A stretch of DNA of 35,843 bases from a virus. Where the stretch lies: the IMG/VR virus record IMGVR_UViG_3300047462_000049, positions 1-35,843 of that record; one strand, 5' to 3'. This document shows positions 5,804 through 21,571 of this stretch, piece by piece. The number at the start of each line of letters is the position of its first letter. The stretch's first letter is position 1. The translations under genes and the position numbers were made by a program. The notes beneath the pieces are model-generated. The model did not search any database. It was not told where the DNA came from and saw only the letters and a program-made list of their open reading frames with translations.

Positions 5804-6325
5804 TTATTTATCTGTTGCGTGAAATTTTAGATATTGTATTGCACGCTCCAATACAGTAGTATTTTCATAGAAAAGCCCAAGACCACTATTACAATTCTTA
5901 CATAAAATGGCTCTAACCTTTCCAGTTGTGTGGTCGTGGTCAGTTGCAATATTCAAATTAGTTATCTCACACAAACATAAAGGGCATTTTCCGCCTTGAC
6001 TTGACAACAAAAAATTATGTTGTTCTTCAGTCATTCCATATTGTTTTAGTAATTTTGCTGCACGCGAACGTTCTCTGTGAAGTTTTGGATTTTTCCAATA
6101 TGATTTTTGCTGGTATTGACGCCACTGTTCTGGTTTTGTAATCTTTGACTTTTGGTAGTATTCCTTTCGTTTCTGTACCAATGTTGGTTGGTTTGACTTG
6201 TAATGCTTTGCGGAATTTTTGTTCCTACAATCTTTGCACATCCAAGACAAGCCATCCTTTTGGGATGCATCCTTACTGAATTTGGTGTTGTCTTTTTCCA
6301 CCTTACATTTATTACATATTTTCAT
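5804..6325 (-). CDS. Recombination endonuclease VII family nuclease
   Basis: 173 residues. An N-terminal zinc finger has Cys 4, 7, 30 and 33, then a basic Tyr/Lys/Gln helix, then the catalytic His-Me finger: C114/C117, D129-H130-D131-H132 (T-D-H-D-H-T-T-G-K-V-R), C142/C145 and N146 (C-K-N-C-N-S-G-L-G). This is the signature of T4 gp49-type endonuclease VII, which cuts branched DNA so that it can be packaged. I chose ATG 6325, 4 bases after the fibre stop; the frame is open to 6418, but the extra residues fall inside the fibre gene. A homing-type nuclease is the alternative, since many HNH proteins share this motif. Confidence 0.85.
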   Translation of the reverse strand: MKICNKCKVEKDNTKFSKDASQKDGLSWMCKDCRNKNSAKHYKSNQPTLVQKRKEYYQKSKITKPEQWRQYQQKSYWKNPKLHRERSRAAKLLKQYGMTEEQHNFLLSSQGGKCPLCLCEITNLNIATDHDHTTGKVRAILCKNCNSGLGLFYENTTVLERAIQYLKFHATDK

Positions 6326-6329
6326 ACTA

Positions 6330-9300
6330 TTATGTGATTGGAAGTCCTGTTGTTGTATCAATCCAGTTTGTTCCATCACAGAACGCAAGTGTTCCTGTGC
6401 CGGATGTTCTTGTTGCATCGGTTACGTAAATTACCGCACCTGTGTTTAGTGCTGGTAAACTTGTCTTGCTCCATTGTGGTGGTTGAATACCAACAGAGGA
6501 ACTAACGGAAAACAAGCCAGCACAATTTACATTGACAGCTTGGTCATTTAGAAGTGAAATGCTTGAACCAGTTCCATCGGAAATGCTTGCTTCGGTACCA
6601 CTTGTTATAGTAATACCACCACTGTCTAGTGTTATGTTGTTGCTGTCAAGTTGGTCTTCCAGTTCAATGTATTGCTCTTCAATGTAAAGGAATGTATTTT
6701 CTGTTTGGTTGGCAGCAAATTCAACATATCCATTTGGTGTTGTAATAGAACCCCAACCTGTAATGCCTTGTCCGTCAGTTGCTGTTAGTTCAATACCACC
6801 ACCGGTAGCGCCAGATGTATCAACGGTTCCGTTTGGACCGACAAGTTCTTCTATGGTTGGTGTGCCCCAAATTGGTGTTGTATTGCCTTGTGAGATTAGT
6901 GCTTGTCCGGTAGTTCCATATCCAACTGATGGTAATGAAAGGGCGCCTGTTGGTGTAATTTGATACTGAATTGTTCCGTTGTTTACACCAAAGCGTAGTG
7001 AACCTGCAACACCAGTGCCAACACCAGAACCTGAAGTTAGCTGTAAATCACCACCATTTTGATTTGTTCCGTTACCAAATCCTGAACGAATGATAAGTTG
7101 ATTACCATCACTATTTGAAGTTTGAACTGGACAATCTATTACAACGGCACCAGTGTTGACTGTTGTAAATTCTATTTCTGTTTGTGTGGTTGATGCTGGT
7201 TGAACAATAAATGTATAAACTCCGAATGCTTGCACCAGAAAGTTCCCATTTGGACCAGAACCATCCCCAGCACCAAGTGAGATGAAAACACTACCACCAG
7301 CTTGATTACTTCCAGTTGCAGCATTTCCTGTAACGATATCTAAATATACACCACCAGAATCAGTTTGGGTTCCAGTGCTGATGGTTGCCGAACCAGTATC
7401 ACCAGAATAACCAAGTTGGATGTTTCCTAACCCAGTGTAAAGAAAATCACTATCACCAAGTAAGCTTCCGCTATTATTGAACTGGACAGAATTGGTTGGA
7501 CCGCCAGGTGTTCCTGAACCAGGATTCACCCACTGCATTTGTGCACCAGCACCTTGTGAGGCTAATACTTGTCCTACTGTTCCTACATTTCCGCTAATTG
7601 AAAATTCACCATTTGGCTCAAATGCGTATGGAGGTGTTGTTGCTGGGTTTAGCAAATTGCCAAGGTAATTGAAATTACCTGGTGCAAATCCAATGCGGCC
7701 ACCTGATGCATTTGAATAAACTGCTGTTACTGTAATAGTACAGACAGATGCTGGTGGAGTTGTTGGATAGTTTGGGTCCATCATTACTAATTCATATACA
7801 TCTCCAACGGATGCACCACCTCCACCAAATCCTCCGTTTGAGCCACCAATCAATACTTCTGTTACAACACCACCAGCAATAGTAATTTGCCAAGCGGCTG
7901 CTTCGTCATAAGTTGTGCTTGTATTATAGAATGTGTAATACTGCTGACTTGTAAGGTCTGTGAAGGTTCCATCTAATGGATAACCACTACCACCGGAAAT
8001 TGTGTATTCACCGATAACATTGGTAAGCAAATTACCAGCTTGGATTACGATATTGCCACTTGTAGAGGTGCCAGAACTGTCTAATCCATTACCACCAATA
8101 AGTCTTGCACCACCACCAATTCCAGCAACACCTGTTGAGTTGAAGTAATCACCACCATTTTGATATCCTGAACCACCAATTTTGGTGCCTGCGAATCCTG
8201 AATCCCAACTGGTTCCTCCTGGATATGCACTGAACGCACTTCCAGTGACCCAGCCACCAGTTTGTGGATTACCACCACCTGTAATTGAAACTGTTTGTCC
8301 TACCGTATAGAATCCAAATCCACCATCAGATGTTCCAAGTGAAATTGTGCCTTGGTTTTGTGAAGAACCAAGTGTCAACTGTCCAGGAACGGAATCTGCC
8401 ATCTGTAAATTTGGTGAGTAATTGGAACCATAATTTGAATAGACAAGATTTGAAGTTCCACCAAACACACCACTGTTGTTGAACTGGACTTGTCCATTCG
8501 TTCCACCAGGTGAACCACTACCGGCAGTTACCCACTCAACATTACCAGCACCATCACTACCCAATACTTGACCAGTTGTTCCAGCACTTCCACCAATGCT
8601 TACTTGCATTGTGTTAGTTGCAGTTAGTGAAAGGACACCAGAACCGTATGCACCAAGAACAACACTGCCTGGACTTGGTGATATAGGTCCACCAGTTGAA
8701 ATCTCTATGTAGCCGTTATAGTTATCACCAAAGCCACTATAAATGTGAACATTGCCGCCATTTGCACCAAGTGTATTCAATCCACCTTGGACGGTTACAT
8801 CACCACCATTGATGCCTGAACCTTCAGTAGCACCAGCCAGCACAAGATTTGTTCCATCCCAAGTTGATGTTGGTAGTCCGTCAAATGCACCAGCATTGTT
8901 CCATTGGATTTCACCTGGTGAGCCACCTGCTGGCAATGTTGGTAGATCAGCAGCAACCAATGCTCGAAAGGCAGGTTGTGCAGCGCCACCAGTTGCAGGT
9001 CCGGCGAATACCGTATTTGGTGCTTGTGAGGTTAGTGTTAGGTTTAGTGTTCCGTAAGTTGTAATTGGACCACCAGATACTCCGTAAATTGGAGTTGTTG
9101 ATGTGTCTGCCAACTGAACAGACGTTACGGTTCCAACTGGTCCTACTGTCCAAGTTGGTGGCAATCCACTTCCTTGTGAGATTAGTGCTTGTCCAGAAGT
9201 GCCAGAAGTTAATCCAGCGAACGTTCCTGAATTGTTATATTGTAGCTGTCCATTACTTCCACCTGGCGAACCACCACCACCGACAGCTGCCCAAATTGGA

Positions 9301-9971
9301 GGGCTGCTTGGTCCTTGGCTTGTTAGCACATATCCAGATGTTCCAGCATCACCATTTATTTGTAATGAAACTTCAGGATTCAAATTCAAATTGCCGCTTG
9401 TGGCAAGAATCAACGTTCCTGTTGCATCATTGATTTGTGAATAGTTGCTTGAAGGGAAACAAGAAAGTTGAAGCCCTGGACCTGAACCAATTTGAATCCA
9501 ACCCAAGTTAGAAGAACCACCAACGATAAGTGTTGGTATGACACCACCAGTTTTAATATACGTTAGGTCGGCTGTTCCATCAAATGCACCCGAATTATTA
9601 AACTGGATGTCAGTATTCGAACCACCTGGTGTTGAGCTTTCGTTTGCAGTGATCGTAACTGTGCCTAATCCGTCAGTTGGTGATAATGTGATATTTGCAC
9701 CAGCAATTAATTGCGTGACACCAATTTCAGCATTGATTGTAACTACACCAAGTCCATTACTTGGCGATAACGTAATTCCAGTTCCTGCGATAAGTTGCGA
9801 AACACCACCTGTTCCGGCACTTTCCCAAAGTAGAGTTCCATCGCCAACCGCAACAAGAACCTGTCCGTTTGCACCAGACGACCCATTATGGTCAAAGATA
9901 ATTGTTCCGTTAGGTGTAATACCTAAACTTGCACTTACCGTGGTCGATGTTGAATTTGGTTCATTTGACAT
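6330..9971 (-). CDS. Giant modular tail fibre (1213 aa)
   Basis: 1213 residues, Gly/Ser/Asn/Thr-rich and almost lacking charged helices. It consists of repeated modules: P-G-G-S/T-N-x-x-V-Q-F-N-N-S-G-x-F-G-G, alternating with G-T-S/T-G-Q-V/A-L-x-S-Q-G-x-x-x-P-x-W, at least six times. A G-S-G-Y-P-L-D-G-T-F domain lies near the middle, and the C-terminal tip reads L-P-A-L-N-T-G-A-V-I-Y-V-T-D-A then F-C-D-G-T-N-W. Such repeats are typical of beta-rich phage fibres that reach the host surface. The gene has AAGGA 8 bases before its ATG. Direct DNA repeats inside it (for example 6886-6908 and 9172-9194) could allow shortening or exchange. Confidence 0.85.
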   Translation of the reverse strand: MSNEPNSTSTTVSASLGITPNGTIIFDHNGSSGANGQVLVAVGDGTLLWESAGTGGVSQLIAGTGITLSPSNGLGVVTINAEIGVTQLIAGANITLSPTDGLGTVTITANESSTPGGSNTDIQFNNSGAFDGTADLTYIKTGGVIPTLIVGGSSNLGWIQIGSGPGLQLSCFPSSNYSQINDATGTLILATSGNLNLNPEVSLQINGDAGTSGYVLTSQGPSSPPIWAAVGGGGSPGGSNGQLQYNNSGTFAGLTSGTSGQALISQGSGLPPTWTVGPVGTVTSVQLADTSTTPIYGVSGGPITTYGTLNLTLTSQAPNTVFAGPATGGAAQPAFRALVAADLPTLPAGGSPGEIQWNNAGAFDGLPTSTWDGTNLVLAGATEGSGINGGDVTVQGGLNTLGANGGNVHIYSGFGDNYNGYIEISTGGPISPSPGSVVLGAYGSGVLSLTATNTMQVSIGGSAGTTGQVLGSDGAGNVEWVTAGSGSPGGTNGQVQFNNSGVFGGTSNLVYSNYGSNYSPNLQMADSVPGQLTLGSSQNQGTISLGTSDGGFGFYTVGQTVSITGGGNPQTGGWVTGSAFSAYPGGTSWDSGFAGTKIGGSGYQNGGDYFNSTGVAGIGGGARLIGGNGLDSSGTSTSGNIVIQAGNLLTNVIGEYTISGGSGYPLDGTFTDLTSQQYYTFYNTSTTYDEAAAWQITIAGGVVTEVLIGGSNGGFGGGGASVGDVYELVMMDPNYPTTPPASVCTITVTAVYSNASGGRIGFAPGNFNYLGNLLNPATTPPYAFEPNGEFSISGNVGTVGQVLASQGAGAQMQWVNPGSGTPGGPTNSVQFNNSGSLLGDSDFLYTGLGNIQLGYSGDTGSATISTGTQTDSGGVYLDIVTGNAATGSNQAGGSVFISLGAGDGSGPNGNFLVQAFGVYTFIVQPASTTQTEIEFTTVNTGAVVIDCPVQTSNSDGNQLIIRSGFGNGTNQNGGDLQLTSGSGVGTGVAGSLRFGVNNGTIQYQITPTGALSLPSVGYGTTGQALISQGNTTPIWGTPTIEELVGPNGTVDTSGATGGGIELTATDGQGITGWGSITTPNGYVEFAANQTENTFLYIEEQYIELEDQLDSNNITLDSGGITITSGTEASISDGTGSSISLLNDQAVNVNCAGLFSVSSSVGIQPPQWSKTSLPALNTGAVIYVTDATRTSGTGTLAFCDGTNWIDTTTGLPIT
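6886..6908. repeat. 23-base direct repeat in fibre gene, copy 1
   Basis: Identical to 9172-9194 (CCTTGTGAGATTAGTG followed by CTTGTCC on the + strand). It encodes G-Q-A-L-I-S-Q-G on the - strand. Near matches occur around 7553 and 10567. It is part of the fibre module repeats. Confidence 0.8.
9172..9194. repeat. 23-base direct repeat in fibre gene, copy 2
   Basis: Exact partner of 6886-6908, 2.3 kb away in the same gene and the same orientation. It encodes the same G-Q-A-L-I-S-Q-G element of the fibre module. Confidence 0.8.
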
Positions 9972-13039: not shown

Positions 13040-14329
13040 TTATGAGCGTTTATAGATGAATACAGGTGCACCACCGTAAGTGCTTGTAACTGCCAACGTA
13101 TCACCACCAACATAAACGTCATTTGTGTAATCCGTTATTGATGTTGCTGTATAGTTAATTCCATCCGTTGTTTCGTAAATTCCAGATGGTCCATACAGAT
13201 ATCCTCTGGTTGGTCCTGGTGTAAATCCAAATCCATAAACTGGTAAAGCAGTTGTTGTCCACGTAATTCCATCTGGTGATGTATACAGATTAGTACCTTG
13301 AAATTGCATAAACAAATTATTAAAAGTGTAAATTGCATTTTGTTCAGGTGGCGAAGTTGGAGTTGAATCTACTTCAGTCCAAGACTTACCATCTGTTGAT
13401 GTCCATACATTTGTTGGATATGGAGGCACAAATGCTCCTGCAACCAACATCCATATTCCATTTGCATATCCTAATCCAAACCAATCATTACCTGATAAGT
13501 CAGTTGCTGATTCGGTCCAAGTAACACCACCATCTGCTGACCACCAAGCCGAATAGGTTGGATATGAACCATATGTACTTACAGTAATTCCACCGTGAGT
13601 TAGAATTGAAGTTACATATGTAGCTAAATTTGGTCCAGGTGCGTTGTTTATAATTAGTGTTACCGTATTAGAGTTTGGTGCAATACGATACAACGTTGTG
13701 TTTGGTGGTGTTCCTCCATATGGAGCGAAGTAAATTGCTTCCGTACCAGGATCTCTAAAGATTTGGTATACACCATAATTAACACCATCAGTTGTCCAAG
13801 ATACTAAATCGGTTGAGAAGTAAATCATTCCACTAATTAATGCAACGAAATACGTTCCGTTGAACATAATTCCAGAAACAAAGCCAGTTGGTAAATTAGT
13901 GTAAAGGGCGTATGTATTACCACCATTACTGGATGATGCCGTTCCATCAAATCCATACGAACCATATGCAATTGAATACACCCCAGCATCATCACTTACG
14001 ATAGCTTGGTAGGTGCCACCATTACCATTACCACCTCCGCCACCATCATATTCAAAACTTAAACCCCAAGGTTCTGGGGGTGCTGGAATACCAACTACTG
14101 GATCAACTACTCGTTGAAAATTACCATATTGGTCTGTTAGCTTTAAGTTGCAATAAACATTCGCTGGTATTTGAAAATTAACAGCAATGCCTTGTGCATT
14201 TAACTGAACTGGTTCTTGTAACTCTACTGTCCACGAATCACCAGCATAGCAGTATATGAAACCATTCGATAACGGATTACCATTTTGGTCACATAATACT
14301 ACATTGTTCCATACTGGTGATGTTGCCAT
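13040..14329 (-). CDS. Receptor-binding tail protein with beta-propeller tip (429 aa)
   Basis: 429 residues. The N-terminal adaptor (W-N-N-V-V-L-C-D-Q-N-G-N-P-L-S-N-G-F-I-Y) ends with N-L-K-L-T-D-Q-Y-G-N-F, and a short poly-Gly linker follows at about 95-105. The rest contains at least five Asp-box-type motifs (F-S-T-D-L-V-S-W, S-A-D-G-G-V-T-W, T-S-T-D-G-K-S-W, T-S-P-D-G-I-T-W, E-T-T-D-G-I-N-Y) spaced as in BNR/sialidase-type propellers. Such tips can bind or cleave surface glycans; catalytic sialidase residues are not evident, so binding is more likely than hydrolysis. Confidence 0.8.
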   Translation of the reverse strand: MATSPVWNNVVLCDQNGNPLSNGFIYCYAGDSWTVELQEPVQLNAQGIAVNFQIPANVYCNLKLTDQYGNFQRVVDPVVGIPAPPEPWGLSFEYDGGGGGNGNGGTYQAIVSDDAGVYSIAYGSYGFDGTASSSNGGNTYALYTNLPTGFVSGIMFNGTYFVALISGMIYFSTDLVSWTTDGVNYGVYQIFRDPGTEAIYFAPYGGTPPNTTLYRIAPNSNTVTLIINNAPGPNLATYVTSILTHGGITVSTYGSYPTYSAWWSADGGVTWTESATDLSGNDWFGLGYANGIWMLVAGAFVPPYPTNVWTSTDGKSWTEVDSTPTSPPEQNAIYTFNNLFMQFQGTNLYTSPDGITWTTTALPVYGFGFTPGPTRGYLYGPSGIYETTDGINYTATSITDYTNDVYVGGDTLAVTSTYGGAPVFIYKRS

Positions 14330-14637
14330 TAAATAGTCTCTATTGTATTACCTAAATGATCTTTAATAACATATGTGTAAGACGCACCAGAAATTTCCCA
14401 CACTTCTGTATTCAACAAACCAGAGATGTTTAGCGGTAGTGGGTTCGTATTATAGGATTCACCAAAGAACTGTGTTGTTCCTGATATAACTAATGGATAT
14501 GCACTGGCATATGTTGTTTGAGGAATTGTAGTGTTTTGTTGATAGGAAAATACCATACCACCAGACAACAGATTGCCTAACAAATCCTTGAATTGCGTTC
14601 CGCTTAATTCTGCATTTAAAACTACTTGTGCTGTCAT
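14329..14637 (-). CDS. Stand-alone adaptor domain of the tail fibre family (102 aa)
   Basis: 102 residues that correspond almost exactly to the N-terminal domain of the next two genes: F-K-D-L-L-G-N-L-L-S-G-G-M-V-F-S-Y near the start, Q-T-T-Y in the middle, and K-D-H-L-G-N-T-I-E-T-I at the end, where it stops. It overlaps the following gene by TAATG. It may be a free adaptor or plug for the tail attachment site, or the remnant of a fibre that lost its tip. No strong ribosome site is seen (AGGG lies 12 bases upstream), and a + strand promoter overlaps its start region. Confidence 0.75.
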   Translation of the reverse strand: MTAQVVLNAELSGTQFKDLLGNLLSGGMVFSYQQNTTIPQTTYASAYPLVISGTTQFFGESYNTNPLPLNISGLLNTEVWEISGASYTYVIKDHLGNTIETI

Positions 14638-14876: not shown

Positions 14877-16019
14877 TTACTTTCCTAACCAGTTGCTGTT
14901 TATATAATTACCCAAGATGCCATCTAATCCAGGCAAGTTAGATTGCGTATTACCACCTATCTGACCTCCAACTAACGGTGATATTTGGCCACCAAGAAGT
15001 TGTGCAGTGTTATTACCTGCATATTTCATGGCACCTAATGTTCCTACATCTTGTGCAAATCCTCTTGCTACTGGACTCATTGCGGCATTTACTAAACCAC
15101 CAATTGTTGCACCCGTCACAGAATGACCTGATGCTAAATGTCCTGCAACACCACCTGCAACCTCACCTGGTATTAATTGTACTGCTGAATTGAAAGCTCC
15201 GGTTGCTAATTGGGAACCGGTTGGTAATGCGCCTTTAGATATACCACCAATCATTTGAGCTTTAGCAATATGATCAATTTCTGGATCTTCAAGAAACTTC
15301 TGAACACCTTTACCGGTTTTTAATAATTCACGTTCATTCAAAGCTGTTTCACCACCATCGAACAAATCGTGAAGTTTTGCAAGTCCACGCTGGGATATGC
15401 TATCATCTAAAGATTGTGAATCTTCAACCGCTCGATCTAAAATCTTTCTTACCCCTGTAGTTCCTGCTGAACGAACCAAATTTGAAATACCTGTTCCAGC
15501 TCCACCCAAGACACCGCCAATTGTTCCACCAAGAGCAACATTAGTTCCAAGTTCTCTTAAATTGGATGATTCAGCACCGCCTTCAACTGCACCCAGACCT
15601 GCACCAGTTACTGCTGCACGACCAACAGTTTGTCCAGCACCAGTTAGTGCAAGTGATGGCAACGCACCAGTTACAGCGCCAGCACCGTAAGCAAGTTTAT
15701 GTTGTTCGTACGCAGCTTGATTAGCTTCTCTTTGTTCTTTAATTGAAGCACCAACATCAGCCCAGAAACCTTCACCTGTTTTCGGTGTGGATGCTGCAAT
15801 CGAACTTGCTATTTCACCAGGATTACTATCCCATTTGTTTATAGCTGCACCAACCATTCCGTTAACAACTTTACCTAATCCAAAGGAAGCATTGTTAGCA
15901 AATCCACGACCAAATGCCTCACCTGTTCCTATTGTCTGTGTAGGCTTGTCAACAGGAATGTCACCATAATTATCGGTAGATTGTGTACCTACTGGGATGT
16001 CATCATAATTACCAGGCAT
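14877..16019 (-). CDS. Probable DNA ejection (internal virion) protein (380 aa)
   Basis: 380 residues with a polar N-terminus (repeated D-D/G-D-I-P-V), then a long Gly/Ala-rich hydrophobic stretch at about 120-200 (A-L-P-S-L-A-L-T-G-A-G-Q through L-G-G-T-I-G-G-V-L-G-G-A-G-T-G) and a Gly-rich C-terminus. This composition and its place, last of three such genes after the gp10-like gene, match P22 ejection proteins (gp7, gp20, gp16), which leave the head and cross the envelope. No lytic transglycosylase motif is seen. AGAGGA lies 9 bases before the start. Confidence 0.65.
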   Translation of the reverse strand: MPGNYDDIPVGTQSTDNYGDIPVDKPTQTIGTGEAFGRGFANNASFGLGKVVNGMVGAAINKWDSNPGEIASSIAASTPKTGEGFWADVGASIKEQREANQAAYEQHKLAYGAGAVTGALPSLALTGAGQTVGRAAVTGAGLGAVEGGAESSNLRELGTNVALGGTIGGVLGGAGTGISNLVRSAGTTGVRKILDRAVEDSQSLDDSISQRGLAKLHDLFDGGETALNERELLKTGKGVQKFLEDPEIDHIAKAQMIGGISKGALPTGSQLATGAFNSAVQLIPGEVAGGVAGHLASGHSVTGATIGGLVNAAMSPVARGFAQDVGTLGAMKYAGNNTAQLLGGQISPLVGGQIGGNTQSNLPGLDGILGNYINSNWLGK

Positions 16020-16021
16020 AA

Positions 16022-17452
16022 TTAATAATCCTCTCCAGTGATGGATTTAAACCTTTGTGCTACTTTATCCTTGTTCTTGCCTGATGCAATTGCCTTTGCA
16101 GCTTCCTGTCGTTCCATTGCAATATCATCTTTAGTCAATTTTGCACCATTTGATGTATAACCTGGTTTTGGAGTATTTGGATTTGGTGATGGTGCTGTCT
16201 TTGGTGTTGGCAGATCACTAATCTGTGGAGTTCTTGCAGCAGATTGTAGATTGTCTTTCTGTGTTTGTAATACACCAATTTTCGACTGAATTAAGCCATC
16301 GAAGCTTCTTAAATCACTTCCGCCTGTAAGACCCATCGTTGGGTCATTTAGTTCAGCAAGTAATCCCTTTGCCTTTATATAATTTGGATTGTTAGTATTC
16401 TTCAATAGCCAACTGCTTAAGAATGCATTTGGAGATGTCATATACTGCTGTTGTTCGGCAGGCGATAATGAACTACCAAATTGGTGAATACTATCAGATA
16501 CATTTTGATAACGAGTAATTGTATTACCAGCAGTCATAGCATCATTATAGTTTTGTAATCTATTAGATGCAGGATTCATATTGTTGTCTATAAAAGCACG
16601 ATTTGCAGGATTGCCATACAATTGTGCGGCTGATTGTTTTGCAATCAACTCTGCATCCTTTGGATTAGCAGCGATTAGTAATTTTTGGATGCTCTTCGTT
16701 ACATCACTATTGACATCACGACCAGCAGGTCCTGTAATGTTTTGTTGAAATTGATATAGATTTTCTCGTACTGTTGGATCAAGTGCTGTTTGACTGATAC
16801 CCTGTGCAGTTTCACGATTATAGTGGTACTTACCGTCTGTTCCTGGTGGTCCAAACAATGAATCTTGTGAAAATGGTGCACCACCAGCATCACTTGTAGC
16901 TTTTAAGGTCTTTGTAATGTAATCGTTATACTTTGCATCAAGAACATCTTGTGATGCATCTGGATTTGCGTTTTGGTAACCAAGCATAAAGTTTTCAGCT
17001 TGTGAACGAATCTTTAAACGTGAATCATTTAGTAATGTGGTATTTTCAATTGTTTTCTTGTTGTTATCAAGAGCAACACCTTTAGCGGTAGCTTCTGCAC
17101 TTGCATTAGCAATAACGTGAGCGGCAACAGATGTACCTTCGTCTGTAAACCCATAGGCATTTGCTGCTGCTGCTAACTTAGTTGGATTTACAACATTTTG
17201 AACTTGACCTGTATTAGGATCTGTTATTTTATCAATAAACAAATCGTGGTGGTCTGCTTGGAATTGCTGGAAAGCAGCAGCTCGTTGTTTCATTTGCGAA
17301 TCAGCTTGAATTCCTGGCAACGCTGCTTGCTGGTTTTTTATAGACTGAAAGGCAGCAGCAGTCTTGGCGAAATCACCAACCTGTGCAAGTGGATTTTGTG
17401 GCTGCTTTATACCTAATGGGATTGAGTTATCTGATTGATCGTAATCTGACAT
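16022..17452 (-). CDS. Probable DNA ejection (internal virion) protein (476 aa)
   Basis: 476 residues, helical, rich in Gln, Asn and Ala, with no cysteine seen. It starts with D-Q-S-D-N-S-I-P-L-G-I-K-Q-P and carries a Pro-rich linker near 420-440 (T-P-K-T-A-P-S-P-N-P-N-T-P-K-P) before a basic C-terminal helix (D-I-A-M-E-R-Q-E-A-A-K-A-I-A-S-G). Similar C-terminal pieces occur in internal virion proteins of short-tailed phages (judged from memory). It is the middle one of three genes between the hydroxylase fusion and the fibre block. AAGGA lies 7 bases upstream. Confidence 0.65.
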   Translation of the reverse strand: MSDYDQSDNSIPLGIKQPQNPLAQVGDFAKTAAAFQSIKNQQAALPGIQADSQMKQRAAAFQQFQADHHDLFIDKITDPNTGQVQNVVNPTKLAAAANAYGFTDEGTSVAAHVIANASAEATAKGVALDNNKKTIENTTLLNDSRLKIRSQAENFMLGYQNANPDASQDVLDAKYNDYITKTLKATSDAGGAPFSQDSLFGPPGTDGKYHYNRETAQGISQTALDPTVRENLYQFQQNITGPAGRDVNSDVTKSIQKLLIAANPKDAELIAKQSAAQLYGNPANRAFIDNNMNPASNRLQNYNDAMTAGNTITRYQNVSDSIHQFGSSLSPAEQQQYMTSPNAFLSSWLLKNTNNPNYIKAKGLLAELNDPTMGLTGGSDLRSFDGLIQSKIGVLQTQKDNLQSAARTPQISDLPTPKTAPSPNPNTPKPGYTSNGAKLTKDDIAMERQEAAKAIASGKNKDKVAQRFKSITGEDY

Positions 17453-17464
17453 AATTGTTCCTTA

Positions 17465-18841
17465 TTAGCCTGTTCCTGTTCCTGGTACAAAGTAATTTAA
17501 TCCATCTGGATCATCACCCGGCGAACCATAGTTTGGATTCTGTTGTACTGGAGTTGGTGTTGTTGGTGTAACTGGTGATTGTTGTCCTTGGAGAAGTTTG
17601 CTCATTAGTGCTCCAGAGGTAGCCGAACCAATTCCACCATTTACTGCATTTGCGATACCAATCGTTCCTGCTGCAGTGGAACTTGCGGCACCAGTCTGCA
17701 ATCCAGTGTATGCATTTACACCAGCCGCTGTTGTTCCAGCGATTGTGCTTCCTGCAGATGTTCCTGCTCCAACTGCCTGACCAACAGCCGTTCCATTTGC
17801 AAGACCAGATAGGTTCGAAATGTTCTGTTGCTGTTGTGTTAGATAATTTTGGAATGCCTGTTGGTAGAATCCACTTGCCGTATTTGTTAAGTATTGGGTT
17901 TGCGAGTTAACAGCATTACCACCTGAAATTCCGTGTGCAGCATCATAGTTCTGCAATCCCAACGAACCCTGTGCTGTAATAAAGCCCATATTAGGGGCAA
18001 GTTGTGAATTTAGATCCGTATTGTTGAAGTTAGCCAACAAACTACCGCTTGATTGCGAAGAAGCACCAGAATTCAACTGACCTTGTGATGCACCGGGTGT
18101 CAATAGGCTTCCAGTTCCAATTCCGTTTAGACCCGTTCCTGTTGAACTTCCACCGCCTTGTGTCGTACCAGGTGTTTGTTGTCCGTAGACTGCATTTGGT
18201 GCAGAGCCAGTTCCATCACTGCTACCACCACGACCCAACCACTGACCAGTTGCAGGACTTGTGCTTGTTCCTGTTCCCAATGGGGTTTGTGTTGGCATCA
18301 TCATATGATCATTCGATACACTAATACCTTGTGCAGTGCTCATTGCTGGTGAACCACCTGTTCCACTAACAGCTGGCGTTGTTGGTGTTCCTTGTGAGGT
18401 TGCTTGAAATGAATTTGGTGATGCATACGTGGCATAATTCATTGAACCAGGACCAACTGGTGATTGTCCACCTGAACTTGTATTTCCACCCAACCCTAAC
18501 TGATTAGCACCACTATTAGGTGTGCCTAATCCAAATCCAGAAGCCAATGCACTTTCTGCTTCTTGCTGGACCTGCATTTGTGGTGATAGGTTGGCAAGAT
18601 TGTTTTCGTAAATCTGGTAGTTTAACTGGTTTGTTTCTTGTGTTGCTTGTAGTTGTTCATTAGCAGCGTTTGTTTGAGCGTTTGCTTCTGTGCTTGCAGC
18701 AGAAGTACTTGCCATAGCACCTACGCCAGCACTTACAACACCACCGATTACGGCAGCAGCTACTTTACAGGCATCAGGGTGGGTAAGCAATAATTTTATT
18801 GCAAAAGGTAGTTTTGTATTACGACTGTCTTTAATTAGCAT
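17465..18841 (-). CDS. Probable DNA ejection (internal virion) protein (458 aa)
   Basis: 458 residues. One hydrophobic segment near residues 25-45 (CKVAAAVIGGVVSAGVGAMA) is followed by a long Gln/Asn/Ala helix and then a Gly/Ser/Thr-rich low-complexity body. The C-terminus has P-T-T-P-T-P-V-Q-Q-N-P. The first residues (M-L-I-K-D-S-R-N-T-K-L) overlap the upstream hydroxylase gene by 11 bases. The membrane-prone N-terminus and position suggest a P22 gp7-like role in forming the envelope-spanning channel (inference from order, not from a motif). Confidence 0.65.
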   Translation of the reverse strand: MLIKDSRNTKLPFAIKLLLTHPDACKVAAAVIGGVVSAGVGAMASTSAASTEANAQTNAANEQLQATQETNQLNYQIYENNLANLSPQMQVQQEAESALASGFGLGTPNSGANQLGLGGNTSSGGQSPVGPGSMNYATYASPNSFQATSQGTPTTPAVSGTGGSPAMSTAQGISVSNDHMMMPTQTPLGTGTSTSPATGQWLGRGGSSDGTGSAPNAVYGQQTPGTTQGGGSSTGTGLNGIGTGSLLTPGASQGQLNSGASSQSSGSLLANFNNTDLNSQLAPNMGFITAQGSLGLQNYDAAHGISGGNAVNSQTQYLTNTASGFYQQAFQNYLTQQQQNISNLSGLANGTAVGQAVGAGTSAGSTIAGTTAAGVNAYTGLQTGAASSTAAGTIGIANAVNGGIGSATSGALMSKLLQGQQSPVTPTTPTPVQQNPNYGSPGDDPDGLNYFVPGTGTG

Positions 18842-19979
18842 TTGATTTGCCCTTTGGAGTAATTATTTTTGTATAGATGATTTCTGTTGGCTTAAACCCC
18901 AATCCCAAAAACAGTTTATCGTGCAATAAGTGAATCTTGCTTCCATTAATTATTTTAATAACACCAAGTTCTTTAAATTTGTCTTCAGCAAACTGAAACA
19001 TCTCTACACCAATTTTGCTTTTGCGGTATTCCTGTTTCAAGTAGTATAAATCCACGATTGCGTGCAAAGTGTTAGCATAATGTAACATATTGCGAATCAA
19101 ACTAATGTGGTAGCCAATCAACTTACCATTGTCTCTCACCGTAACTACGTGCAAATGCCCATCATTATCTAATTTCTCATATGATGGATAATCAAGTGCA
19201 ACAGGAACATCAATGTGATCCAACCCGAGTTCCTTCCAGTGCGGTTCGATGAATGGATCGAACTCACGAACGATCGAATTCCATCGTTCAACCTGGTAGG
19301 TTATACCCTCACCATATGTTGGCTTTGGTGTTTGTGCCTTAATGCCAGCCATATAGTTATCCCAAATAGCTTTTAGTTCTTCTTTTTCTTCTGGTTGTGG
19401 GAACTTACCTGGTTTTATTTCTTCAATGCGAAGATCCACAACCATATGAATTCGATCATAACCTGAATTGTTTACAACTGCGTGTGGGTATTCATTTCGA
19501 AAGAAGTAAACATCACCGGTTGTCATTTCTACGGTTTCGTCGCCGCACTCAAATTTAACGCCTGGAAAAGCACCAACCACAACGTGAATTCTACACCAAT
19601 AGTTTGCGTGTTCAGGCGTGTCAGGATGTTTCCAAATTTGTCCACCATTACGAATTCTATTAATCATAACACGACCTATTCGTGTTGCACCATATTGATT
19701 TGCTAATTGATATACGACCTTTTTGTGTTCAGGAAGTATGTTTGCTACATCTTGCCATACACATTCGTGCTGGTCGATTTCCTTTAGGTTGCATCGTTCA
19801 AGTTCTTCAACCGTTCTTGTTGTAAAGCGAAGGATGATGCTATGAGTGTCGTTAAATGGACCTTGCGCGTAGTTTCGTAAGTATGTGTCAGCTTTCCAAA
19901 TGCTTGGATCTGTTCCTTGTAATTCTTTTAGCAGTGCAGGAATATCGACAGTGGTGTTTAACTTTACGAACTTATTCAT
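18831..19979 (-). CDS. Fusion of Asp/Asn beta-hydroxylase-like domain and GNAT acetyltransferase
   Basis: 382 residues. Domain 1 (about 1-190) has the iron-binding layout of the aspartyl/asparaginyl hydroxylase (cupin) family: H118-x-D120 (K-H-P-D-T-P), G-D-V-Y-F-F at 155-160, H166 (E-Y-P-H-A-V) and R176 (D-R-I-H) for 2-oxoglutarate. Domain 2 (about 230-375) is a GNAT fold, with the acetyl-CoA loop at about 318-328 (Y-R-K-S-K-I-G-V-E-M-F) and a C-terminal G-L-G-F-K-P-T-E. The gene lies in the tail cassette between the gp10-like protein and the ejection proteins. Modification of virion or host surface proteins or of a fibre is plausible; the substrate is unknown. Confidence 0.85.
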   Translation of the reverse strand: MNKFVKLNTTVDIPALLKELQGTDPSIWKADTYLRNYAQGPFNDTHSIILRFTTRTVEELERCNLKEIDQHECVWQDVANILPEHKKVVYQLANQYGATRIGRVMINRIRNGGQIWKHPDTPEHANYWCRIHVVVGAFPGVKFECGDETVEMTTGDVYFFRNEYPHAVVNNSGYDRIHMVVDLRIEEIKPGKFPQPEEKEELKAIWDNYMAGIKAQTPKPTYGEGITYQVERWNSIVREFDPFIEPHWKELGLDHIDVPVALDYPSYEKLDNDGHLHVVTVRDNGKLIGYHISLIRNMLHYANTLHAIVDLYYLKQEYRKSKIGVEMFQFAEDKFKELGVIKIINGSKIHLLHDKLFLGLGFKPTEIIYTKIITPKGKSNAN

Positions 19980-20029: not shown

Positions 20030-21571
20030 TTACTTTCCTTCTTCAAAATCGCCAGCAACAACAACCAAATGGGCAATAACATTATCGGTTACCGATATCT
20101 CGAATACACGATCATAAGCCCATCCTAATTGCGACCATCTTGCTCTTGCTTTATAAGCACCAATTGCACCTAATGTGGTATAGATTGGTGTTCCATATGT
20201 CTGTCCACCATCATCACTGCATCGTAATATTGCTTGTGGGTTTACATTATTACTGGTATTTGTGCCATTATTTACTAATCCTTGTCCCATAAGGAAGTCA
20301 GCCTGTAAAAGACCATAAAAGATTGGATTTAAATTATTGCTAATATGCGGAGAGCGTCTACGACGCAACATTGTCATTCCGTTGTCGGTTGCATTCGTAG
20401 CATCAAACGAATAAATGTTACCACTTGTATCACCAAACAAATGAACATTGTTTAGCACAGCGTGTGCTACTGGCAACCACTGGCCTTGTGTATTATTTGT
20501 TTGTTGTGTTTGCCATTCGACCCATATTCCATTTTGTGGACTTAACTCTGTTACGGCTTGAAGGTCAAATACCCAAGTTGTATTCAGTCCAGGTGCTTGA
20601 AGAATGTAGAAGTAATGTCCTTCATACAACATTCCCATTCCAATCGTATCTGTTAAATCACCAGATTGTGCTAATGATAGTTCAACAGCGTGGGTTGAAA
20701 TGCGTTGTGGTGTGTATCCATTCATCGAATAAACAACAGGACCACCTTGTGGGTTCGAACCCAACCAGAACATTGTTCCTGCTAATTGAACCAAACTTGC
20801 TGGTGATAAGCAACCAACTTGTGAGTTCTTACCATCTTCACGAGCGAATGTGAATACAGACGATTCTAATGAGTCGTCCCATACTTCACCAGTTTGCGTT
20901 CCCCAAATAAACAATTCTCTTCCATTACTGATTAGTGCTGTTACCAAGTCAGCATAACCTTGCTTAACTGCTATGTTGCTACCTAAACCAGGACTTGGCC
21001 AAGCGATTGGTCCGCCACCAGCACCGCCACCTTCTGGTGCAGTGTTTGCAGTAGAGAATATGTTTGGGGAGTTTGGTTGGCATCCAAGAAAGAATCCATC
21101 TTGGTATGTGATTTGTGTTCCACCAGGATATCCAGCATTGGTTAATGATTGTAATGTCGTATCACCAATTGCAAATGTATAATACGTTGTTGTTCCGTCT
21201 GCAATAAAGACATAACCACCATTGTCTGAAATAGAAACATATCCAGCAGAAGTTCCTAACGAACCCGCAATGTTTATAGGTGTAGCCATTCCACCAGTAA
21301 GGAAATAAACCTGATTACCAGATACTACGATAACACCAGCGTTGGTTGATAGCAAATACATTCCACCTGGACGAATTGGACCTGGTGCAATGTTCTGCAA
21401 CAAAGTTAGACCTGGTCGCTGTAAGAGTTCAGTTACCTGCTTCTCTTTACCACTACCAACTTCATCGGCTTGAAGGTAATAGTTAATTGTCTGTTCGCAG
21501 GAATACCGTGGGTTGTTGTCACGATACGATCCGCCGATGAAACCAGGGATAACTCTTTTGTTTTCTGTCAT
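20030..21571 (-). CDS. P22 gp10-like tail closure (packaged DNA stabilisation) protein
   Basis: 513 residues; P22 gp10 has about 470. The start is family-like: R-V-I-P-G-F-I-G-G-S-Y, then C-E-Q-T-I-N-Y-Y and L-L-Q-R-P-G-L-T-L-L. Repeated beta elements follow, and W-S-Q-L-G-W-A-Y-D-R-V-F-E-I-S-V-T-D near the end is also family-like. In P22 gp10 closes the channel below gp4 after packaging and anchors the tail. It lies directly after the gp4-like gene as in P22. The ribosome site is weak. No gp26 needle gene follows. Confidence 0.85.
   Translation of the reverse strand: MTENKRVIPGFIGGSYRDNNPRYSCEQTINYYLQADEVGSGKEKQVTELLQRPGLTLLQNIAPGPIRPGGMYLLSTNAGVIVVSGNQVYFLTGGMATPINIAGSLGTSAGYVSISDNGGYVFIADGTTTYYTFAIGDTTLQSLTNAGYPGGTQITYQDGFFLGCQPNSPNIFSTANTAPEGGGAGGGPIAWPSPGLGSNIAVKQGYADLVTALISNGRELFIWGTQTGEVWDDSLESSVFTFAREDGKNSQVGCLSPASLVQLAGTMFWLGSNPQGGPVVYSMNGYTPQRISTHAVELSLAQSGDLTDTIGMGMLYEGHYFYILQAPGLNTTWVFDLQAVTELSPQNGIWVEWQTQQTNNTQGQWLPVAHAVLNNVHLFGDTSGNIYSFDATNATDNGMTMLRRRRSPHISNNLNPIFYGLLQADFLMGQGLVNNGTNTSNNVNPQAILRCSDDGGQTYGTPIYTTLGAIGAYKARARWSQLGWAYDRVFEISVTDNVIAHLVVVAGDFEEGK

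Follow-up and report, generated by a model that had tools for sequence, protein, structure and literature searches.

Ejection proteins form the DNA-delivery channel of short-tailed phages, and little is understood about how those of the gp7/gp14 type are made ready to enter the membrane. P22 gp7 has been grouped with T7 gp14 as the ejection machine's outer-membrane component (PMC8954989); host OpdA cleaves a 20-residue N-terminal leader from P22 gp7 to leave Lys-Gly-Gly-Lys-Gly (PMC8402733). In both phages one small gene lies directly before the gene for this type of ejection protein, encoding gp13 (PF11090) in T7 and gp14 (DUF2824, PF11039) in P22. The P22 gene order is 10-26-14-7-20-16, in which gene 14, not gene 26, directly precedes gene 7. 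Both enzyme domains described below, an Fe(II)/2-oxoglutarate (2OG) hydroxylase of the PF05118 family and a GNAT, are already known, and so is the location of a GNAT next to internal virion proteins. Pseudomonas phage PfAn1 and Limnohabitans phage DC33 each carry a hydroxylase gene and then an adjacent GNAT gene before a small ejection-type gene; unlike the fused frame described here, these are two separate genes, and their records annotate them piecemeal, not as a system. The DC33 record (L003, PQ492659.1) says Inoviridae, yet those of its proteins that were read resemble the terminase and portal of a tailed phage. Neither the hydroxylase-GNAT pair nor its tie to the N-terminus of an ejection protein was found described in the literature searched, where coverage was thin for subscription journals.

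The stretch of DNA analysed here, 35,843 nucleotides of a virus contig (the window), carries P22-type late genes for terminase, portal, scaffold, coat and Hc3, a gp10-like protein. Hc3 is followed by a single open reading frame that joins hydroxylase to GNAT, and then by an ejection cassette, ej1-ej3. The features are as follows.

20030-21571, minus strand: Hc3, head-closure protein (P22 gp10-like), the upstream neighbour (phrog_578, 6e-69)
18831-19979, minus strand: fused hydroxylase-GNAT ORF, 382 aa, ATG start, single open frame
19410-19979, minus strand: Fe(II)/2OG hydroxylase domain (PF05118), residues 1-190; metal residues H118, D120 and H166, 2OG residue R176
19314-19409, minus strand: helical linker, residues 191-222, modelled at low confidence (pLDDT ~46-64)
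18840-19313, minus strand: GNAT domain (PF00583, phrog_1249), residues 223-380; R319 and G324 in a variant CoA pyrophosphate loop
18831-18841, minus strand: 11-base overlap between the enzyme stop and the ej1 start
17465-18841, minus strand: ej1, gp7-like DNA-ejection protein, 458 aa, the proposed substrate (iterated HMM family)
18764-18841, minus strand: basic N-terminal leader of ej1, 26 aa, MLIKDSRNTKLPFAIKLLLTHPDACK
18752-18763, minus strand: VAAA motif after the leader, the conserved ej1 start in phages with hydroxylase and GNAT
16022-17452, minus strand: ej2, second protein of the ejection cassette (by position; homologous neighbour in L007, L008 and L088)
14877-16019, minus strand: ej3, third protein of the ejection cassette (by position; homologous neighbour in L007, L008 and L088; phrog_5880)

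The window ej1 has no direct match in Pfam or PHROG, including PF25688 (P22_gp7). It is joined to the gp7 type through its relative in L007, which matches phrog_598 (DNA ejection), and through an iterated HMM. Other ej1 relatives match phrog_598 as well, and that of PfAn1 scores 29.7 bits against PF25688, for which the cut-off is 28. The sequence-only reading had placed the enzyme where P22 keeps its gp26 needle and had coupled it to an ejection protein gene by an 11-base overlap. The overlap is real (18831-18841, with the ORF at 17465-18841), but the needle slot is not borne out. The enzyme lies between the gp10-like Hc3 and a gp7-like gene and its relatives are fixed to the latter, which makes gene 14 of P22, rather than gene 26, the better counterpart of this slot. 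That the protein is itself a gp26 tail needle, a coiled coil encoded between genes 10 and 14, is ruled out by its two globular enzyme domains and by the tie of the module to the gp7-like gene instead of Hc3. As for T7 gp13 and P22 gp14, neither of which has a hydroxylase or detected sequence similarity to the window enzymes, we claim only positional equivalence, because hhalign, Pfam and PDB searches gave no sequence link. The window ORF has no Pfam match to PF11090 or to DUF2824, the hhalign probabilities are 0.2% for gp13 and 0.3% for gp14, and the PDB searches were also negative for both.

Judged from conserved residues and structure models, both catalytic domains of the window ORF are intact. 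Pfam places Asp_Arg_Hydrox on residues 79-183 (E 1.3e-11, 45 bits, curated cut-off 22.6) and Acetyltransf_1 on residues 265-342 (E 1.7e-6, 28.7 bits, curated cut-off 20.7). In AlphaFold models, one from alignment A3 used for the GNAT half and one from alignment A5 used for the hydroxylase half, residues ~1-190 adopt a DSBH fold and residues ~224-380 a GNAT fold; the linker of the fused relative in L007 is shorter than that of the window. The solved structures closest to the hydroxylase model are proline 3-hydroxylase (1E5R), AspH and L-proline cis-4-hydroxylase (4P7W), with a VIA Z of about 15. H118, D120, H166 and R176, together with N170, are present in 101 of 101 aligned relatives. The DSBH fold and the metal and 2OG residues are common to AspH, 4P7W and the window hydroxylase, whose profile matches 4P7W at E 1.4e-12 with these residues aligned. 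The window protein retains the metal aspartate, as the cis-4-hydroxylase does, whereas AspH lacks it in the alignment (HxG in 5APA). It is without the C-terminal part of 4P7W (the alignment stops at 184 of 292) and, unlike either enzyme, its family is encoded by a phage late gene fused to or beside a GNAT.

The GNAT half shows the common fold, passes the Pfam cut-off and has protein N-terminal acetyltransferases (Naa30, RimI-type) among its matches, N-alpha-acetyltransferase 30 (7L1K, 8e-6) being the best PDB match of its profile. Its model also compares with CoA-bound GNATs at a VIA Z of about 15. Several of its residues are 99-100% conserved. Compared with known GNATs it forms a phage subfamily of its own, with invariant H247, E250 and Y267 and a variant CoA loop: RKSKIG in the window versus the usual R/Q-x-x-G-x-G/A, and R-x-G-x-x-G in the family, where R319 is conserved at 99% and G324 at 86%. 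With both Pfam cut-offs passed and both folds modelled, the earlier description of a hydroxylase core (H118/D120/H166/R176) and a GNAT domain in one ORF holds. A check for a missing iron or CoA site likewise came out in its favour, with the CoA loop a variant one.

Relatives of the hydroxylase occur in at least 537 viral stretches and relatives of the GNAT in at least 575. Among 160 distinct hydroxylase ORFs read, the GNAT is the next gene in 140, often with a 4-base overlap; three are fused (the window, L007 and L010), 9 run into a contig end, and the other 8 have no adjacent GNAT. Four of these last 8 have an inserted gene and then GNAT and ej1, two immediately precede an ejection-type gene, and the remaining two are at apparently unrelated bacterial loci. 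HNH-type homing endonuclease-like genes are inserted between hydroxylase and GNAT in L122, L186 and L078. The order hydroxylase-GNAT-ej1 is unbroken where Hc3 lies downstream (L120, L121, L128, L129, L136, L137, L164) and where Hc3 is on the opposite strand (L002, L091, L154). A GNAT without a hydroxylase is common in the same place. Bacterial carriers amounted to 17 loci in a genome scan with a narrow alignment and are mostly Burkholderiales prophages.

The conserved feature is thus the order hydroxylase-GNAT-ej1, which is kept when the head-closure gene moves; the fusion is incidental, a rare convenience and not the essence. Nearly all relatives encode two adjacent genes, so fusion is not what matters, and we rejected it as a functional need (3 fused versus 140 adjacent). 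Of the original proposal of one fused enzyme within the tail cassette, what survives is a conserved link to the tail and ejection genes, and what falls away is the fusion itself (3/160). A search for the domain pair and its neighbours in other phages found the pair tied to this cassette, not scattered.

The N-terminus of ej1 tracks the enzymes encoded upstream. In the window, the leader MLIKDSRNTKLPFAIKLLLTHPDACK is followed by VAAAVIGG. Where hydroxylase and GNAT are both present, 128 of 131 distinct ej1 proteins either start with Met-Val (112) or have VAAA after a basic leader of 11-26 aa (16), the exceptions being L082, L112 and L163. Of the 72 ej1 proteins with other genes upstream, none has the VAAA motif and one starts with Met-Val (L019, MVSGPV, GNAT only), two cupin-class starts (L410 and L411) having been corrected by hand. 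In the Met-Val group Val is invariant at position 2. Residues 2-5 are about 92% identical, against a median of 32% for the alignable bodies, and beyond residue 5 conservation declines. The motif is encoded by 47 different 12-mers in 109 copies, indicating that the constraint acts on the protein; a DNA-level cause is rejected by this codon variety. The same split of N-termini appeared in a control sample picked by the ej1 C-terminal region alone, blind to the N-terminus. In mixed-class clusters of related ej1 bodies the N-terminus goes with the upstream gene, kinship among the ej1 sequences being handled by clustering only. One pair of loci, L245 and L371, is 93% identical in DNA over 4.4 kb upstream and 89-92% identical downstream; between these flanks, where one locus carries the two enzyme genes and its own first ~23 residues of ej1, the other has a cupin-like gene and a different N-terminus. 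That VAAA stays constant although the bodies diverge and the leaders are unrelated speaks for a function of the motif. Among isolates outside the sample, PfAn1 fits, with an ej1 that starts MVAAAV, but DC33 has both enzymes and an ej1 that starts MGVTAA. The leader ahead of VAAA often has Cys or Cys-x at its end (L007, L008, L012, L084, L088, L130, L161, L249 and the window), a possible mark of a processing site.

We therefore favour, at a probability of roughly 0.55, a late bifunctional protein-modifying enzyme that is dedicated to the downstream gp7-like ej1 and acts on its mature VAAA N-terminus. In the mechanism that we infer, ej1 would be made with Met or a short basic leader ahead of Val-Ala-Ala-Ala, and removal of the Met or leader would expose this sequence. 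Such leader cleavage in the ej1 family would have a precedent in the cleavage of P22 gp7 by host OpdA. Acetylation of the exposed N-terminus would then fall to the GNAT domain, and hydroxylation of a side chain within or beside it to the Fe(II)/2OG hydroxylase. The modifications might cap the hydrophobic N-terminal helix of ej1 before entry into the procapsid, or prepare it to insert into the membrane on ejection. Counting against this reading are the variant GNAT loop, the three exceptions in 131, the DC33 start and the fact that neither valine nor alanine is a known target of PF05118 hydroxylases. The enzyme kind fits the earlier idea that a virion or host envelope protein is modified; the generic target does not, as the data point to the ej1 N-terminus as the likely substrate.

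The enzymes could instead be active during virion assembly on another late protein, such as ej2, the transglycosylase or a head protein, with VAAA merely hitchhiking in recombination. The adjacency of the genes makes co-exchange likely anyway, and the L245/L371 pair taken alone could be such a case, since the N-terminus is flanked by the swapped genes on one side and by the homologous body of ej1 on the other. Hitchhiking is harder to reconcile with a VAAA motif that is kept over bodies of 32% median identity, after unrelated leaders and in varied codons, however, and it is precisely the order hydroxylase-GNAT-ej1 that forms the constant part; we consider this reading unlikely. The gene position lends itself also to a reading in which both domains serve the ejection protein mainly as a chaperone or scaffold in its assembly, like T7 gp13 or P22 gp14, with catalysis secondary and VAAA a binding motif. 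Those two proteins precede gp14 and gp7, respectively, and a GNAT in the same position has been equated with T7 gp13 before (PMC6775973). Yet the iron/2OG site is invariant in the 101 relatives, several GNAT residues are nearly so, and the sequence link to gp13 or gp14 is missing from our searches, which makes a mainly structural role quite unlikely.

Modification of the host, by action on lipid A or another envelope molecule (LpxO-like) or on small molecules as an auxiliary metabolic gene, appears very improbable. Its attractions are a discussion of the DC33 homologue as metabolic potential (PMC12195039) and a weak similarity of the PfAn1 relative to the LpxO lipid A hydroxylase (NF033391). 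That similarity amounts to 21.3 bits, far under the equivalog cut-off of 500 bits, and the window protein has no match to this family. Nor would host modification explain why the genes keep their place ahead of ej1, or why they are associated with its N-terminus.

Beyond the hydroxylase-GNAT pair, other genes occupy the same slot. Most members of the sample picked by the ej1 C-terminal region have a cupin-like gene there instead, and their ej1 usually starts Met-x-Phe/Trp; a second GNAT subfamily accompanies Met-Ala starts. An aromatic N-terminus for the cupin class was seen in 49 of 49 members of the sample, after the ej1 starts of L410 and L411 had been corrected by hand to MSGWVAGAMV, but as a rule it is broken outside the sample by VvAW1, P26218 and ctfPj964 and is a tendency only. 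The cupin-like protein has 113-160 aa and conserved His residues and fills the slot without hydroxylase or GNAT at L371:4403-4879 and about 49 further loci; Cupin_2 scores above its cut-off in L413 and L448. PHROG names this protein 'short tail fiber protein', which may be wrong. A fusion of cupin-like and SET domains (PF00856, 5.9e-13 and 7.6e-12) lies directly before the gp7-like gene at L391:4093-4902 and L410:4060-4914, a further kind of protein-modifying gene in this slot.

We tentatively entertain, as a possibility somewhat short of even odds, a swappable slot for protein-modifying enzymes before gp7-type ejection proteins, each modifying a co-evolved N-terminus: hydroxylase and GNAT with VAAA, the cupin mostly with Met-x-Phe/Trp, and the second GNAT with Met-Ala. 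Its occupants would be hydroxylase plus GNAT, two GNAT subfamilies, the metal-cupin-like protein and the cupin-SET fusion. If ej1 is indeed the substrate of the hydroxylase-GNAT pair, phages encode dedicated enzymes for the N-terminal modification of an ejection protein, among them a protein hydroxylase for which a short recognition motif is predicted. Proteins at present classed as auxiliary metabolic genes or acetyltransferases would thereby gain a testable substrate, and a role would be suggested for long-obscure genes at the same position, T7 13 and P22 14.

Elsewhere in the window, an Endonuclease VII/HNH-type ORF (5804-6418; phrog_2633, 3e-33) overlaps by 89 bases, on the same strand, the 3' end of the ORF at 6330-9971, which encodes a fibre-like protein of 1213 aa. 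Between 11694 and 14637, three consecutive ORFs have related tail-fibre-like N-terminal segments; the copy at 14329-14637 has just 102 aa, as if it were a spare or truncated fibre-like start.
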